Below are positions 32,457 to 43,554 of a stretch of 64,000 nucleotides of DNA, in pieces. The position numbers were made by a program, and so were the translations under genes. The stretch lies in NCBI GenBank assembly GCA_014376785.1, contig JACMQW010000007.1, positions 1 to 64,000 of the forward strand, written 5' to 3'. This stretch comes from Oligoflexia bacterium (lineage in GTDB: Bacteria > Bdellovibrionota > UBA1018). Each line of letters opens with the position of its first letter. Positions within the stretch are counted from its first letter, which is position 1. The notes under the pieces are model-generated. The model saw only the letters and a list, made by a program, of their open reading frames with translations, did no database searches and was not told the DNA's origin.

Positions 32457-32876
32457 TTACTGACGAGTTTGAACTTCACGACCGGCGACTTGCTGACGAA
32501 TCAGCGAACGCTGAAGCTTCAACTCATACTTGCGAAAAAGTTTTGAATCGAGCTCGGGGTCGGTGAGTGCATTCTCCGCTTTTTTCTGAGCCGTACGAGC
32601 TCGGCTCGGATCGATTTCCTTCGCGAGCTCTACGGTTTCCGCGGTCACCGTAACGCTTTCTCCACCGCGCACTTCGAAAAAACCCGAAGTGATCACGCCA
32701 TGAATAGGATTTCCATCGAGCGGTTGAAAAGCAAACTCACCCGTCTCGAGGGTTCCGATCATATCCGCGTGCTGAGGAAGAATCTGAATCTGTCCTTCGC
32801 TACCGGGCAGGGTAACCGAAGAAACTTCGGTCGAACTAACCACCCGCTTTTCGGGGGAAAGAATATTCAACTGCAT
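32457..32876 (-). CDS. atpC: ATP synthase F1 epsilon subunit
   Basis: MQLNILSPEKRVVSSTEVSSVTLPGSEGQIQILPQHADMIGTLETGE. Confidence 0.95.
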   Translation of the reverse strand: MQLNILSPEKRVVSSTEVSSVTLPGSEGQIQILPQHADMIGTLETGEFAFQPLDGNPIHGVITSGFFEVRGGESVTVTAETVELAKEIDPSRARTAQKKAENALTDPELDSKLFRKYELKLQRSLIRQQVAGREVQTRQ

Positions 32877-32900
32877 CGACTTCTCCTCCCTAGTTCAGAA

Positions 32901-35251
<2,351 letters not shown>

Positions 35252-35268
35252 AACCTAGCCCCCAAGAC

Positions 35269-36774
35269 TTAAGCTGTGAAAGTTCCCGCAAACTCTTCGA
35301 GCGCGGCTGTGAGACGCGCCTGGAGATCTCCGTCGATCTTAGCGGTCTGCATCGACTTCAAGATTTCCGGATATTTACGGTGCATGAATTCAAGAATCTG
35401 CTTTTCATAACTCTTCAAAGAACTAACCGGATATTTATCCGTAAAGCCTTTGGTTCCGGCATAAACCATGAGCACTTGCTCCTCGACCGACATCGGCGAG
35501 TACTGGTCCTGCTTCAACATCTCAACCAAGCGGCTTCCCCGAGCTAGCTGCTTCTGGGTGGCGGCATCGAGATCGGATCCGAATTGGGAAAAAGCTGCCT
35601 TCTCGCGATATTGGGCGAGATCGAGGCGAAGCGTTCCGGAAACCTGCTTCATCGATTTAATTTGAGCCGCTCCTCCCACGCGTGAAACAGAGATACCCAC
35701 GTTCACTGCAGGACGCACTCCGGAGTGGAAAAGGTCGGTTTCCAAGAAAATCTGGCCATCCGTAATCGAAATCACGTTGGTCGGAATGTAGGCCGAAACG
35801 TCGCCTGCTTGGGTTTCGATAATGGGAAGCGCGGTCAGAGAACCTCCTCCCATTGCATCGGAAAGTTTAGCTGCCCGCTCTAGCAAACGAGAGTGCAAAT
35901 AGAACACGTCTCCGGGATATGCTTCCCGGCCCGGCGGCCGGCGAAGGAGAAGGGAAAGCTGACGGTAAGACTGCGCCTGCTTCGTCAAATCGTCATAAAC
36001 GATCAATGCGTGCTTCCCGTTATCGCGGAACCACTCGCCGATGGTCACGCCGGTGTATGCGGAAAGAAATTGCATCGGAGCTGATTCAGAAGCCGTTGCC
36101 GCAACAACCACGGTGTAATCGAGCGCCCCATATTGGCGAAGTTTATCAACAACCTGAGCAACGGTGGATTGCTTTTGTCCGATAGCGACGTAGATGCAAT
36201 AAACTCCGCGACCCTTTTGATTGATGATCGTGTCGAGAGCGACCGCTGTTTTACCGGTCTGACGATCTCCGATGATCAATTCGCGTTGGCCGCGCCCAAT
36301 CGGGATCATGGAATCAATGGCTTTAATTCCGGTCTGCAACGGTTCGTTAACCGACTGTCTTGCAACGATTCCAGGTGCTTTGATTTCAATCTTGCGCGTT
36401 TCTTTTGCGTTGATGTCGCCCTTGCCGTCGATCGGTATCGCGAGCGCGTTCACGACTCGGCCACAAAGCTCTTCTCCTACCGGGACCTGAACGATTTTGC
36501 CGGTTCTTTTAACGGAGGTACCTTATTTGATTGCAGATTCATCTCCGAGAATCGCAACACCGACAGCGTCGGTCTCGAGGTTCAGAATCATTCCGAAAAC
36601 GCCGCTGCCGAAATCGACAAGCTCTCCAGCCATCGCTTTCTCAAGGCCGTAAATTTTCGCGACCCCGTCTCCGACGGAAATGACGGATCCGGTTTCGGAA
36701 ATGTCGAGCTTCTTGTCGAAGTCTTTGAGTTGGGTCTTTAGGATCTGCGTGATTTCTTCGGGGCGAATTTGCAT
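35269..36774 (-). pseudogene. atpA: ATP synthase F1 alpha subunit interrupted by an in-frame TAA (36523-36525); possibly a sequence error
   Basis: ORFs 36774-36523 and 36453-35269 are in the same frame; conceptual read-through gives ...[48 protein letters not shown]...; P-loop [15 protein letters not shown] intact. Confidence 0.85.
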
Positions 36775-36798
36775 ATTTACCTCTGCTTAAAAACGAAA

Positions 36799-37368
36799 CT
36801 AAACGGAACGGGCGCCTACTGGTTTACCGTAAACCAGTCGCTCCCGAAGTTGATTGAGTTGTGATCGCATCGACCCATCGTAAGTCGTTCCGGCCACGGT
36901 AACCTTCAGTCCGGCGAGCAAGCTTGCGTCAACCGAAGCCCTAAATACGACCTTTTTGCCGAGTTTTCGCGTAAAATCGGCCGCAAGCGAATCAAGCTCT
37001 TTCTGATTCATGACATCTGCAGATACGACGTGACCGAGAGTAGCGCCTTCGCTTTCCAGACGAGCAATAACGAACGCGTTCGTCACCGCTTCAAGTAACG
37101 GTCCTCGTCCCTTTTCTGCAATCAGGGTTAAAAACTGAACCGTTAACTTTGAAAACTCCATTTGGGTTGCGATGGCTTTCGCAACAGAAGCTTTGTCTGC
37201 AGCCGAAATCACTGGGCTCGTTAGAGCTGCTTCAAGGCCAACGGAGGTTTTTACCGCCGAGACAAAAGCGGAAAGTTCGGACTCGATTTGATCGAGATCC
37301 GAATCCTTCAACCCGGCCTCTCGCGCAGCCTCTAACAACGCCGTGGCATAAGATCGACTGACGCTCAT
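36799..37368 (-). CDS. atpH: ATP synthase F1 delta subunit
   Basis: MSVSRSYATALLEAAREAG...GLKVTVAGTTYDGSMRSQLNQLRERL. Confidence 0.95.
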   Translation of the reverse strand: MSVSRSYATALLEAAREAGLKDSDLDQIESELSAFVSAVKTSVGLEAALTSPVISAADKASVAKAIATQMEFSKLTVQFLTLIAEKGRGPLLEAVTNAFVIARLESEGATLGHVVSADVMNQKELDSLAADFTRKLGKKVVFRASVDASLLAGLKVTVAGTTYDGSMRSQLNQLRERLVYGKPVGARSV

Positions 37369-37859
37369 CGGCTGGTCTCCACTTGTTTAGAGAAATCTTT
37401 AGTCATTTGCTCCCGCACTTCGCCCGTTATCCGTGAACGCAAATGAACTTCCGTTCTCAAAATAACCTGATTCGCCAGTTCCGCGCGAATTTGATCGCGA
37501 AATTCATGAATCATCGACTCGCTCGTGCGCTTCGAGTCGATGACGATTTGGTCAGCCGCGCGCTTTGCCTCAGTGACGATTCTTACCCTTGAAGACTCCA
37601 CTTCCTCGCGAATTTGTTGGGTCAGCGACGCAACCTCTGCATCCATCGTTGAAAGGCGTTGAGAATACTCTGCGTAGCGCTTCTGTGCTTCACGCAACTT
37701 TGCGTGAACTCGCTCGATTTCGTCTCGCAAAGTTGCGTGTCGATCCAACACAAAATCTTTCAACGGCTTTCGTAGAAAATAGACTAGCCCTGCGACTAGA
37801 ATCGCAAAGTTAATTAATGGATAAATGAGTCCGCTCAACGGCGAATGTTCCGACATCAT
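37365..37859 (-). CDS. atpF: ATP synthase Fo b subunit
   Basis: N-terminal TM followed by long helix FVLDRHATLRDEIERVHAKLREAQKRYAEYSQRL. Confidence 0.88.
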   Translation of the reverse strand: MMSEHSPLSGLIYPLINFAILVAGLVYFLRKPLKDFVLDRHATLRDEIERVHAKLREAQKRYAEYSQRLSTMDAEVASLTQQIREEVESSRVRIVTEAKRAADQIVIDSKRTSESMIHEFRDQIRAELANQVILRTEVHLRSRITGEVREQMTKDFSKQVETSR

Positions 37860-38311
37860 TATTGCCTCTTCGTGAGCATGTCCGAAATTTGGAGAGAGAG
37901 CCCTTCGACGTCGGCTTCAAGAGACCGCTTCAGGCTAGTGGATTGGGACTGAATAGATTCTAACGCTGCTTGCGTAATTCGCTTGGCCTCTTCGCGAGCG
38001 CCGGTCATGATTTTGGATTCTTCCGCTTTCACTTCACCCATCGCCCGCTCGAATTCAGCCCTCGCAAGCGTTCGCTCTTCATTCATTCGAGCTCGAAACT
38101 CTTCAAGTTTCGCATTGGCTTGCTTCACCAATTCTTCCGCCCGCTCGCGATCCGCTACCGTTTTCTGGTGCCGCGCTTCGATCAATTTTTGGAATGGTTT
38201 GAAGAAGACAGTGGGGACGATAAAAAAAATTACCGTAAATACGGCAAATTGAACGAAAAACGTAGAGTTTAAATCGAGTTGCGCGAGGATGGCGGCCACA
38301 AAAGTCTCCAA
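37859..38311 (-). CDS. ATP synthase Fo b'-type subunit
   Basis: N-terminal TM FFVQFAVFTVIFFIVPTVFFKPFQKLIEARHQKTVADRERAEELVKQAN; tandem with second b-type gene. Confidence 0.88.
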   Translation of the reverse strand: METFVAAILAQLDLNSTFFVQFAVFTVIFFIVPTVFFKPFQKLIEARHQKTVADRERAEELVKQANAKLEEFRARMNEERTLARAEFERAMGEVKAEESKIMTGAREEAKRITQAALESIQSQSTSLKRSLEADVEGLSLQISDMLTKRQ

Positions 38312-38438
38312 AATACGCTAAGTTATGAGCGAAGTTGTAGCTAACATGCACGATTCTTCACGGTCAAGGAAATCCAAAGATCTCTGCAACGAAGGAGAAA
38401 GGGGTGCCTTTAAAAAAGAAGGCTGTCCCCAAATAAGA

Positions 38439-38840
38439 TCAAAGAGGCCGCGAAGCCACGGTGGGAGAAGGTACGGAGGCGGAGTTGATCATTTTACTCG
38501 ATCCTTCGAAAATCACTCCCTCATCCACTTGAAGACTCGGCGTGACAATGCTGCCTCGGAATACAGCCGGAGCGTGCACTTCTACACGATGTCTTGCTTT
38601 AATATTCGCGTGCACTTCGCCACTGATAATGACGATTCCCGCGTCTATTTCTCCGCTCACTTTGGCTCCCTCTCCAATAATGAGGGTATCTGGGGTGAAG
38701 ATTTGACCTTTGAATGCTCCACCAATTCGAAGCGTTCCCTGAAACGTGAGTCGTCCCTCAAATTCCGAACCGGCGTCTAGAACGCCTGTAACAGCTGAAA
38801 ACGTGGCGGGGGTCGAAAGCGGGTTTTTTTTAGATCGCAT
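38439..38840 (-). CDS. Bactofilin (polymer-forming cytoskeletal protein)
   Basis: SEFEGRLTFQGTLRIGGAFKGQIFTPDTLIIGEGAKVSGEIDAGIVIISGEVHANIKARHRVEVH. Confidence 0.93.
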   Translation of the reverse strand: MRSKKNPLSTPATFSAVTGVLDAGSEFEGRLTFQGTLRIGGAFKGQIFTPDTLIIGEGAKVSGEIDAGIVIISGEVHANIKARHRVEVHAPAVFRGSIVTPSLQVDEGVIFEGSSKMINSASVPSPTVASRPL

Positions 38841-39796
38841 TAGCGAGAAGTTTGCATGAGGCTGATCAGACGTTCAAGCTCTTCGCGCGACGAATAATGA
38901 AGAACGAACTTTCCTCGTTTTTCATTTCCTTTGAGTTCAGCCTTAATGCCGACGGCGCGTGTAATTTCGAGCGCGAGGTTTTTCAGACGAGACTGTACTG
39001 GAGTAAGGTTCTTCATCGCCTCAGCAACTACGTTTCCCGTGGAACCGAATTTCTTTTGCATTTCTGCAACCAGGGCCTCCGTTGCGCGGACTGACAATTT
39101 TCCTTCGATGATTGCTTTTCGAGCGAGCAGCCTTTGATCTTGGTCTTCCAGCGAAAGGAGCGACTTTCCGTGACCGAAGGAAAGGGTTCCCTTTTTGAGG
39201 TCATCAATGATCGCTTCAGGCAGGCGAAGCAAACGAACAAAGTTTGCAACCGTGGAGCGCTCTTTTCCGACGCGCTCCGCCGTTTCGTCCTGGGTGAGGT
39301 TGAAATCTTGCATCAATTGCAGGTAAGCCAGGGCTTCATCGATGCAATTTAAATTGGACCTTTGGATGTTTTCGACGAGCGCCAACTCAAGCGCTTCTTT
39401 GTCCGTCGATTTTCGGATGACAATGGGAACTTGTTTTAATCCGGCGATTTTTGCTGCTCTGAGCCGTCTCTCGCCCGCAATCAGCTGATATCCCACTGGC
39501 CCCTTGCGGACAACCAAAGGTTGAATAATGCCGTTGGTCAAAATCGACTGAGACAGTTCGTTCAGTTCGCTTTCTATAAATTCCCGGCGGGGCTGATAAG
39601 GGTTCGGAACGATGTCTTCGATATTGGCAAATGAAAGACCAGGAATTCTATTGGCCTGCGTCATTTCTGGTGCCGGAATAGCGGGTCCTGCCGCTTGAGC
39701 ACCGACCCCCATGGGATGGTGTGTCGCAGTCTGCGTCGGCTGACTCATTGGTAAGAGTGATGCGAGTCCTTTTCCTAAAACTGGTCTTTGTGCCAT
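38840..39796 (-). CDS. parB: Chromosome partitioning protein ParB
   Basis: RPVLGKGLASLLP; DIVPNPYQPRREFIESELNELSQSI; LIAGERRLRAAKIAGL; ALVENIQRSNLNCIDEALAY. Confidence 0.97.
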   Translation of the reverse strand: MAQRPVLGKGLASLLPMSQPTQTATHHPMGVGAQAAGPAIPAPEMTQANRIPGLSFANIEDIVPNPYQPRREFIESELNELSQSILTNGIIQPLVVRKGPVGYQLIAGERRLRAAKIAGLKQVPIVIRKSTDKEALELALVENIQRSNLNCIDEALAYLQLMQDFNLTQDETAERVGKERSTVANFVRLLRLPEAIIDDLKKGTLSFGHGKSLLSLEDQDQRLLARKAIIEGKLSVRATEALVAEMQKKFGSTGNVVAEAMKNLTPVQSRLKNLALEITRAVGIKAELKGNEKRGKFVLHYSSREELERLISLMQTSR

Positions 39797-39822
39797 CTTC
39801 AATCCCCCGTTAGGCAAATCCA

Positions 39823-40737
39823 TTAATTTTTCTCTTGAGTCAATTCGCCTAAGTAGGGAGGCGGCATTGAAAGTCCAGGAACCACGTTTTCGCTTTTTGC
39901 TTGCTCTGCCATTTCACTAAAAGCGTCTACCTGGTTTCTCGCTAAAAATTCATTTGCCAAACTCAGGTAAGCAACGCTTCCTTTAGAGTTCACGTCGTAA
40001 AGCACAATGGGTTTGCCAAAACTGGAGCACTCCGAAAGTCTGACGTTTCTGGGAATGACAGTGGTGAAAACCTGAGTGGTAAAGTGTTTTCGGACCTCAT
40101 CGACGACTTGGTTTGAAAGATTCGTTTTAGAATCGTACATCGTCAGCAAGATTCCTTCTTCTCCCAGCTTCGGATTGGTGCTCTGACGGATTAGCCCAAT
40201 GGTGTGAATGAGCTGCGTTAGGCCTTCGAGAGCAAAGTATTCACACTGCAAGGGCACCAAGTAACTGTCCGCGGCAGTGAGAGCGTTTACGGTCAGAAGT
40301 CCCAATGAAGGGGGGCAGTCGATGAGGATGTAATCGTATTGTGCCCTTACTTCTGCAATTGAAGTTCGAAGCTTTGATTCCCTGGCAAAAGCGGAAACCA
40401 ACTCTATCTCCGCACCGGTTAAGTCTGAGTTGGATGGAGAAACAAAGAGGCCATCTACTTCGGTAGGTCGAATAGTTTCAGATAATTTCGCTTCACCGAT
40501 CAACGCATTGTAAATCGTCGGACCCGATGCTGCCATTTGGCGGTCTATTCCAAGGGCGGAAGATGCGTTTCCTTGGGGGTCGAAGTCCAACACTAAGATT
40601 TTCCGGTCGGCCAAAGCCAAACAAGCGGCGAGGTTTACGGTCGTGGTCGTTTTTCCAACCCCACCTTTTTGATTAATCAGCGCCACGATTTTTCCCAGTC
40701 GTGGGGCGTCGTTCATTTTCTCGTTAAATGAAGCCAT
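39823..40737 (-). CDS. parA: Chromosome partitioning ATPase ParA
   Basis: IVALINQKGGVGKTTTTVNLAACLA; VLDFDPQGNASSALG; YILIDCPPSLGLLTVNAL. Confidence 0.97.
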   Translation of the reverse strand: MASFNEKMNDAPRLGKIVALINQKGGVGKTTTTVNLAACLALADRKILVLDFDPQGNASSALGIDRQMAASGPTIYNALIGEAKLSETIRPTEVDGLFVSPSNSDLTGAEIELVSAFARESKLRTSIAEVRAQYDYILIDCPPSLGLLTVNALTAADSYLVPLQCEYFALEGLTQLIHTIGLIRQSTNPKLGEEGILLTMYDSKTNLSNQVVDEVRKHFTTQVFTTVIPRNVRLSECSSFGKPIVLYDVNSKGSVAYLSLANEFLARNQVDAFSEMAEQAKSENVVPGLSMPPPYLGELTQEKN

Positions 40738-40783
40738 ATCTCTGTCTTTCGCGTGGAATCAGGTATTCAAGCCTGTTTTATGT

Positions 40784-40815
40784 GGGTACTCGGTCAGATA
40801 AAAACCCGAGTACCC
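40784..40815. repeat. Strong inverted repeat/hairpin in parA leader (rsmG-parA intergenic)
   Basis: GGGTACTCGG (40784-40793) ... CCGAGTACCC (40806-40815), perfect 10-bp stem, 12-nt loop. Confidence 0.8.
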
Positions 40816-40958
40816 AAGATCCCTGCTCCGCGTGGTTGTGGAGGGCGGGATATTCACTCAAATCGGTGAAAAAATATTCTACTCACTCAGAGTATGGACG
40901 CGAAATGAAATCAGCAAGGTTTTTCGTTCTTCTTTTTATTGGCAATCAAAAATAGGGA

Positions 40959-40974
40959 TGTTCCACGTGGAACA
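40959..40974. promoter_or_regulatory. parS site (ParB-binding)
   Basis: TGTTCCACGTGGAACA, perfect 16-bp palindrome of parS type, about 220 bp upstream of parA. Confidence 0.93.
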
Positions 40975-40979
40975 ATCAC

Positions 40980-41624
40980 TTATTTTCTAATGAGTTCAAC
41001 TAAAACACGCGATTTTTCCAATAAACCCACCTTGTATCGGTGTTCTCTTCCTAGATTCAGCCGCTTACCGCGCGAAGTCTTTCGAAATTCACTCCACTCT
41101 TCTTCCCATTTTGGACCTTTCATCAGCAGAAGCTTGTTCCACGTGGAACATTCCTCAATCCAACCGTGGATTCTGCCCACCGGGCCGACTGCGCGGGCAA
41201 AAATAGTGTCTACAGAGTGACTACTCAAATAGGTTTCGGCGCGAGAGTGAACCGAAATAATGGCCTTAATAGCGAACTGATCGATCATTTTCTGACTAAA
41301 ATCGGCCTTCATCTTCTCAGAGTCGCAAGAGATAATCGTTTCGTGACTATTCAACCCGTAAATAAGGGCATAAAGCAGGCCTGGAACACCCATGCCGGCG
41401 CCTAAATCAAGCGCCGGGAAGCTCAACAGTCCAGAACGCTTGAGTTCAACCACATCTAGAACATGCCCTTCAAAAAAATCTGCCGGGGTAAGAAGCCGAG
41501 TTAAATTTTGAAACGAGTTCTCCAAAACAACCTCATCCCTGAAGTCAGCGATTCGGCTAATTTGGTTCTCGTCAAATTCACCCAATCCGCGGAGAAGAAT
41601 TTCGAATTCATTTCTTTCAGACAT
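40980..41624 (-). CDS. rsmG: 16S rRNA (guanine-N7) methyltransferase RsmG (GidB)
   Basis: ALDLGAGMGVPGLLYALIYGLNSHETIISCDSEKMKADF; RAVGPVGRI; next to mnmG. Confidence 0.93.
   Translation of the reverse strand: MSERNEFEILLRGLGEFDENQISRIADFRDEVVLENSFQNLTRLLTPADFFEGHVLDVVELKRSGLLSFPALDLGAGMGVPGLLYALIYGLNSHETIISCDSEKMKADFSQKMIDQFAIKAIISVHSRAETYLSSHSVDTIFARAVGPVGRIHGWIEECSTWNKLLLMKGPKWEEEWSEFRKTSRGKRLNLGREHRYKVGLLEKSRVLVELIRK
41135..41150. promoter_or_regulatory. parS site (ParB-binding), inside rsmG coding sequence
   Basis: TGTTCCACGTGGAACA, identical to site at 40959. Confidence 0.93.
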
Positions 41625-43554
41625 GTGGATGGGCCCCTTTATCAAGCATTTTTAAGTGAATCAGGAGGTTGGCAACCGCTGCAGGCGTCACCCCCATCAA
41701 ACGACCCGCTTGTCCGATCGTTTCCGGCCTAGCTTCTTTGAAAGCATTCAAAATCTCGTTGGAAAGCCCGGGAACCTGCTCATAGTTGAGACCGGCTGGC
41801 ACCCGCATTTTCTCGTTCTTTTCCACCCCGGCAATCATTTCTAAGTCACGCTGAATATATCCCGCATATTTTACCTGGATTTCCACCTGCTCCGAAACAT
41901 CTGATGGGGTACTAGACAAATCAAACGGCACCCTTCCATCCATCTCAGACAATAAATCCATGGTGACTTCAGGCCGTTTAAGAAATGTTGCCAATGATGT
42001 CTTATCCTTGAGCAACGAAAGTCCCTTGGATTTCACCCATTCATTCGTGGCAACGTTAGGATAAAGAAACTCCTCGTGAACTTGAGAAAATAGTTTTTCA
42101 ATTCCATTCCGTTTCTCTACGAACTGCGAATAGGACTTCTCCGAAAGAAGGCCTATTGAATGCCCTTTCGGAGACAGTCGAAGGTCAGCGTTATCTTCGC
42201 GAAGGTGGAGACGATATTCCGCTCTCGACGTGAACATCCGGTAGGGTTCATCTGACCCTTTTAAAATCAGATCATCGATTAAAACACCAATGTAGGCATC
42301 TGATCTTCCAAGCGTGAAAGCAGCTTTTCCTTGAGAGGACAATGAAGCATTCACTCCAGCGATGAGTCCCTGAGCGCCCGCTTCTTCATACCCCGAAGTT
42401 CCATTCACCTGGCCGGCAAAGAAAAGCCCCTTTACATCTTTGGACTCAAGCGTTGCTCCCAACATTCGAGCATCTACCGCATCGTATTCAACCGCATAGC
42501 CGTGGAGCAAAAATTTCGCGTTTTCTAATCCAGAAATAGAATGAATAAATGCTTCCTGGACAGAAACGGGCATCGAGGTTGACATCCCATTCACGTAAAT
42601 TTCGGGAACGTTTAAACCTTCCGGTTCGAGGAAGATCTGATGCCGTTCTTTTTCCGCAAAGCGTTTCACTTTATCTTCAATCGAAGGACAGTAGCGTGGC
42701 CCTACCCCCTGGATCATTCCAGTGAACATCGGAGATAAATCGAAGTTCTCAGCGATGATGTCGTGGGTCTTTGAATTCGTGTACGTTATGAAGCATTCGG
42801 TTTGGCGAAGCTCCGGAAATGACTCGCTGCGATAATAAAACGAAAAGGGGGTTGGTTTCTCGTCACCAGGTTGAACTTCCGTCTTTGACCAATCAATGGA
42901 ATCTTTATGAAGGCGAGGAGGAGTGCCGGTCTTCAGGCGACGAAGCTTAAATCCCAATTCTTCGATGGATCGACTCAACGTTTTAGCCGCTTCGTCCCCG
43001 ACCCTGCCGCCTTCAGACTTGTCAAAGCCGGTGTACATGACTGCGCGCATAAACGTGCCGGACGTGACCACAACACAGCGCGCCTTAATGACCGAACCGT
43101 CCCGCAGCCGAACTCCCGTGATTTTTGAAAAACCCTTTTCAGACACAGACAACAAATCGGCGACTTCGATTTCCAAAATCTCGAGATTTTGGATCCGCAC
43201 CAAGGTCTCTTGCATTTTCACCGCATAAAGGGGCTTGTCACATTGCGCGCGAGAGGAGCGAACAGCTGGTCCTTTTGAAGAATTCAATCGGCGATATTGG
43301 ATGGTGGCCTTATCGGTCTGCATCCCCATAATCCCACCCAAGGCATCAATTTCCTTAATAAGTTGTCCTTTGGCCAAACCGCCCATTGCCGGATTACAAG
43401 AAAGGTAACCAATTCGAGAACGATTTAAGGTGATAAGGGCCGTTTTAGATCCCATTCGCGCGGCAGCATGGGCCGCCTCGGTTCCGGCGTGTCCACCCCC
43501 GATAACCAGGACATCGTAATCAACCTTCTGAGTATGCGAAGCGTTCGAATTCAT
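41617..43554 (-). CDS. mnmG: tRNA uridine 5-carboxymethylaminomethyl modification enzyme MnmG (GidA)
   Basis: YDVLVIGGGHAGTEAAHAAARMG; GYLSCNPAMGGLAKGQLIKEIDALGG; RYCPSIEDKVKRF. Confidence 0.98.
   Translation of the reverse strand: MNSNASHTQKVDYDVLVIGGGHAGTEAAHAAARMGSKTALITLNRSRIGYLSCNPAMGGLAKGQLIKEIDALGGIMGMQTDKATIQYRRLNSSKGPAVRSSRAQCDKPLYAVKMQETLVRIQNLEILEIEVADLLSVSEKGFSKITGVRLRDGSVIKARCVVVTSGTFMRAVMYTGFDKSEGGRVGDEAAKTLSRSIEELGFKLRRLKTGTPPRLHKDSIDWSKTEVQPGDEKPTPFSFYYRSESFPELRQTECFITYTNSKTHDIIAENFDLSPMFTGMIQGVGPRYCPSIEDKVKRFAEKERHQIFLEPEGLNVPEIYVNGMSTSMPVSVQEAFIHSISGLENAKFLLHGYAVEYDAVDARMLGATLESKDVKGLFFAGQVNGTSGYEEAGAQGLIAGVNASLSSQGKAAFTLGRSDAYIGVLIDDLILKGSDEPYRMFTSRAEYRLHLREDNADLRLSPKGHSIGLLSEKSYSQFVEKRNGIEKLFSQVHEEFLYPNVATNEWVKSKGLSLLKDKTSLATFLKRPEVTMDLLSEMDGRVPFDLSSTPSDVSEQVEIQVKYAGYIQRDLEMIAGVEKNEKMRVPAGLNYEQVPGLSNEILNAFKEARPETIGQAGRLMGVTPAAVANLLIHLKMLDKGAHPHV

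Follow-up and report, generated by a model that had tools for sequence, protein, structure and literature searches.

An in-frame TAA in the single atpA gene of an Oligoflexia bacterium is probably a wrong consensus base

The gene for the alpha subunit of F1 ATP synthase (atpA) in the draft genome of an Oligoflexia bacterium (3.22 Mb in 103 contigs, 96.6% complete, 2.15% contamination) is split by an in-frame TAA, which raises the question of whether the organism has lost the gene, decodes the stop, restarts translation behind it or carries no such stop. If the TAA were true, the organism would either respire without a functional ATP synthase or read through UAA in a core gene, both of them unexpected; if the base is wrong, the case serves only as a warning, one wrong draft base having split a core gene in two. 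The window, i.e. the whole stretch of 64,000 nucleotides that was analysed, contains the features presented in Table 1.

Table 1. Features of the atpA region, in window coordinates
Feature	Coordinates	Strand	Description
atpF'-like	37859..38311	-	ATP synthase b-type subunit, intact
atpF	37365..37859	-	ATP synthase subunit b, intact
atpH	36799..37368	-	subunit delta, intact
atpA	35269..36774	-	F1 ATP synthase subunit alpha; 501 codons across one internal stop; ATG at 36774, end at 35269, translation MQIRPEE...GTFTA*
atpA piece 5' of the stop	36526..36774	-	83 aa, most of beta-barrel domain PF02874
In-frame TAA	36523..36525	-	codon 84 of 501 in the minus-strand translation (36525..36523); Glu in 109/109 relatives checked
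atpA piece 3' of the stop	35272..36522	-	417 codons; PF00006 (nucleotide-binding) and PF00306 (C-terminal) intact
GTG	36451..36453	-	first possible in-frame restart after the stop; 394 aa product without the beta-barrel
atpG	34346..35251	-	subunit gamma, intact
atpD	32901..34325	-	subunit beta, intact
atpC	32457..32876	-	subunit epsilon, intact

The gene displays a full-length match to the TIGR00962 (atpA) profile, and its two pieces align with the model end to end (profile positions 1-82 before the stop and 84-502 after it). All three domains of F1 subunit alpha are encoded; the TAA, which is the only internal stop in the frame, interrupts the beta-barrel and leaves the two downstream domains, nucleotide-binding and C-terminal, complete. 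Translation of the minus strand thus confirms what the initial annotation had described, namely an in-frame TAA in atpA with the same frame going on to the normal end. What sets the gene apart from other AtpA sequences is the TAA, at a position held by Glu in all relatives checked. Among the 29 nearest of them that have a full gene, two of which belong to the same genus (91-92% identity), the counterpart of codon 84 reads GAA (GAG in a few), and all 80 alpha subunits taken from more distant bacteria likewise carry Glu there. A stop at this codon was observed in 0 of the 29 nearest and 0 of the 80 distant sequences. Internal stops were likewise absent from the best matches listed in a phylum-wide atpA search, and a contig scan for a genome of the same species returned distant relatives only. 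The earlier statement that many homologues carry an acidic residue near this position was right as to the acidic character but too loose as to the place, since Glu lies exactly there in all 109 sequences. In this alignment a single G-to-T change separates the TAA from GAA, the codon of an invariant Glu, in line with the change proposed at the outset. One genome of the same order (G044) contains, on contig C113:2165-3346, a second, divergent alpha-type subunit of 51% identity beside its normal atpA.

A single wrong base in the consensus of the 103-contig draft, or a rare variant taken for the consensus, probably accounts for the TAA, a reading favoured by the single transversion that separates it from the GAA of nearly all 29 nearest relatives, with Glu in 80 more. 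A coding-strand G may have been misread as T (C as A on the plus strand) at plus-strand position 36525, turning GAA into TAA. Possible sources are an error from sequencing or from DNA damage where coverage was low and, alternatively, a rare variant read that became consensus, and the organism itself would most likely carry GAA and make a normal alpha subunit. Oxidation of guanine while libraries are prepared is a recognised source of G:C-to-T:A errors (PMC5521083), and the direction of the change, typical of oxidised guanine, also favours a consensus error. The TAA resembles known single-base consensus errors of this kind in draft and metagenome assemblies in being an isolated transversion within a clean, conserved gene. 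A literature search returned nothing direct on nonsense atpA or on stop errors in assembled genomes.

The main rival to a consensus error is a real, very recent nonsense mutation that inactivated atpA in the strain sequenced, or in the greater part of the population sampled, leaving cells that live by other means or represent a dead-end variant; it is unlikely, although clearly ahead of every other alternative. Some bacteria's ATP synthase mutants do live by fermentation. The genetic content of the present organism argues against such a mutation. A second intact atpA, named beforehand as a finding that would count against the interpretation, was looked for across the 3.22 Mb genome and is absent, the sole close match being the gene described here; no V-type ATPase or other rotary ATP synthase was found in the genome either. 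The next-best matches to the alpha subunit are a FliI-like ATPase on contig C94 (so typed by inspection of its sequence), followed by AtpD and then a Rho-like ATPase, so that no spare atpA is among them. The other F1 genes and the b genes are intact, as the initial annotation had claimed for the neighbouring atp genes, and follow the b'-b-delta-alpha-gamma-beta-epsilon order of known F1 ATP synthases. They belong to one minus-strand run (32457-43554) in which mnmG, rsmG-like, parA, parB and bactofilin-like genes, named by reading their translations, precede the F1 and b genes. Both atpB and atpE are intact on the plus strand of the same contig (C14:66148-67186), ~28 kb from the F1 and b genes and beyond the window. 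A haem-copper terminal oxidase gene (cytochrome oxidase subunit I) is intact elsewhere in the genome, which makes respiration, and hence a need for ATP synthase, likely. The ATP synthase is therefore complete apart from the interrupted gene and is probably needed. The single atpA, together with the intact state of the remaining ATP synthase and oxidase genes, argues for a consensus error and against a real inactivation.

The pattern of substitution in atpA points the same way. Estimates of dN/dS lie at about 0.03-0.06 and, against the sister species, at ~0.04 for the part 5' of the stop and ~0.03 for the part 3' of it, values that are rough because synonymous sites are near saturation. The alpha subunit has accumulated 17 amino-acid changes in its own lineage and 15 in that of the sister species, and its own lineage presents one substitution at 246 otherwise invariant sites. 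There is thus no sign of relaxed selection on either side of the TAA and no further lesion in the frame; the gene is not decaying, in contrast with what is expected of a pseudogene. This means that the stop, if real, must be very recent, and a real mutation would need to have arisen extremely recently but already be the consensus. The low dN/dS, the similar numbers of changes in the two lineages and the near absence of hits at invariant sites favour a wrong consensus base.

As in stop-codon recoding or suppression, whether by a suppressor tRNA or by programmed read-through, an open and conserved frame lies on either side of the TAA, and downstream the frame shows full conservation and purifying selection, as it would if UAA were translated, by read-through or by recoding as an amino acid, to give a full-length alpha subunit. 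In contrast with these systems, the stop is not conserved in relatives and the machinery is not apparent. Release factors RF1 and RF2 are both intact in the genome, with no sign of alteration, and among the 35 tRNAs typed by anticodon (of 36 matches) none has the anticodon UUA, CUA or UCA, in a set that also lacks some expected tRNAs (e.g. Cys and Phe). TAA is the commonest terminator on the contig, ending 36 of 66 homology-supported genes. Folding of the RNA 3' of the stop is poorer than that of shuffles (z +1.44), with no structure able to aid read-through, and a search around the stop revealed neither promoter nor terminator patterns. Taken together, the absence of a suppressor tRNA from the 35 typed, the intact release factors, the ordinary use of TAA and the lack of downstream structure make recoding or read-through very unlikely. 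A code change or suppressor tRNA was accordingly rejected, in agreement with the initial annotation, which had held a code change to be improbable. More specifically, that a bacterium using UAA as stop makes its only alpha subunit by site-specific read-through, or with a rare tRNA missing from the draft, is extremely improbable.

A working, shortened alpha subunit produced by restart of translation at the GTG beginning at 36453, or later, can be credited with only the slightest probability. The codon is the earliest in-frame start 3' of the stop, as the initial annotation had noted in suggesting re-initiation, it lies 23 codons downstream, and the nucleotide-binding and C-terminal domains would be complete in the product. 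The suggestion is unlikely to hold as to function: the truncated protein would lack PF02874, which spans residues 26-92 in the protein of the sister species, and the alpha beta-barrel domain forms the crown of the F1 hexamer. In addition, a reading of the sequence 5' of the GTG revealed no well-spaced ribosome-binding site, and no relative uses such a shortened form. The list of options given at the outset (error, inactivation, read-through and re-initiation) was sound, and what is left of it is a consensus error, which is favoured, and a very recent mutation.

Between these two, the quality of the assembly speaks for a real mutation. Comparison of 847 kb of the genome with 1.7 Mb from two same-genus genomes covered 286 gene pieces and ~100,000 codons, in which genuine internal lesions were confined to the TAA in atpA and one ggt (gamma-glutamyltransferase) pseudogene; no other frameshifted gene was found in the 286 pieces. 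Other internal stops in the scan were dismissed, by inspection of ORFs and by low flanking identity, as belonging to antisense shadow frames, to ends or to extensions 5' of the true start. An error-prone assembly was thus rejected as a blanket explanation. The otherwise clean assembly and the infrequency of errors count against a consensus error, and the error rate alone would leave a real mutation in contention, as would the genuinely decayed ggt, which indicates that gene loss occurs in this genome. As a rough estimate, however, one nonsense error per ~100,000 codons needs a consensus error rate of only ~1 in 100,000 bases. We infer a wrong base in the assembly, and setting the stop aside as not a real feature of the organism is a judgement of likelihood rather than proof. 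A core gene split by one wrong base may prompt a false call of gene loss.

The ggt homologue, whose family name comes from reading its sequence, lies outside the window on another contig of the genome (C45:46507-47660, locus L178). An in-frame TAA interrupts it at C45:47005-47007, ~205 codons are deleted relative to the same-genus relative, and the frame changes near C45:47172-47190.
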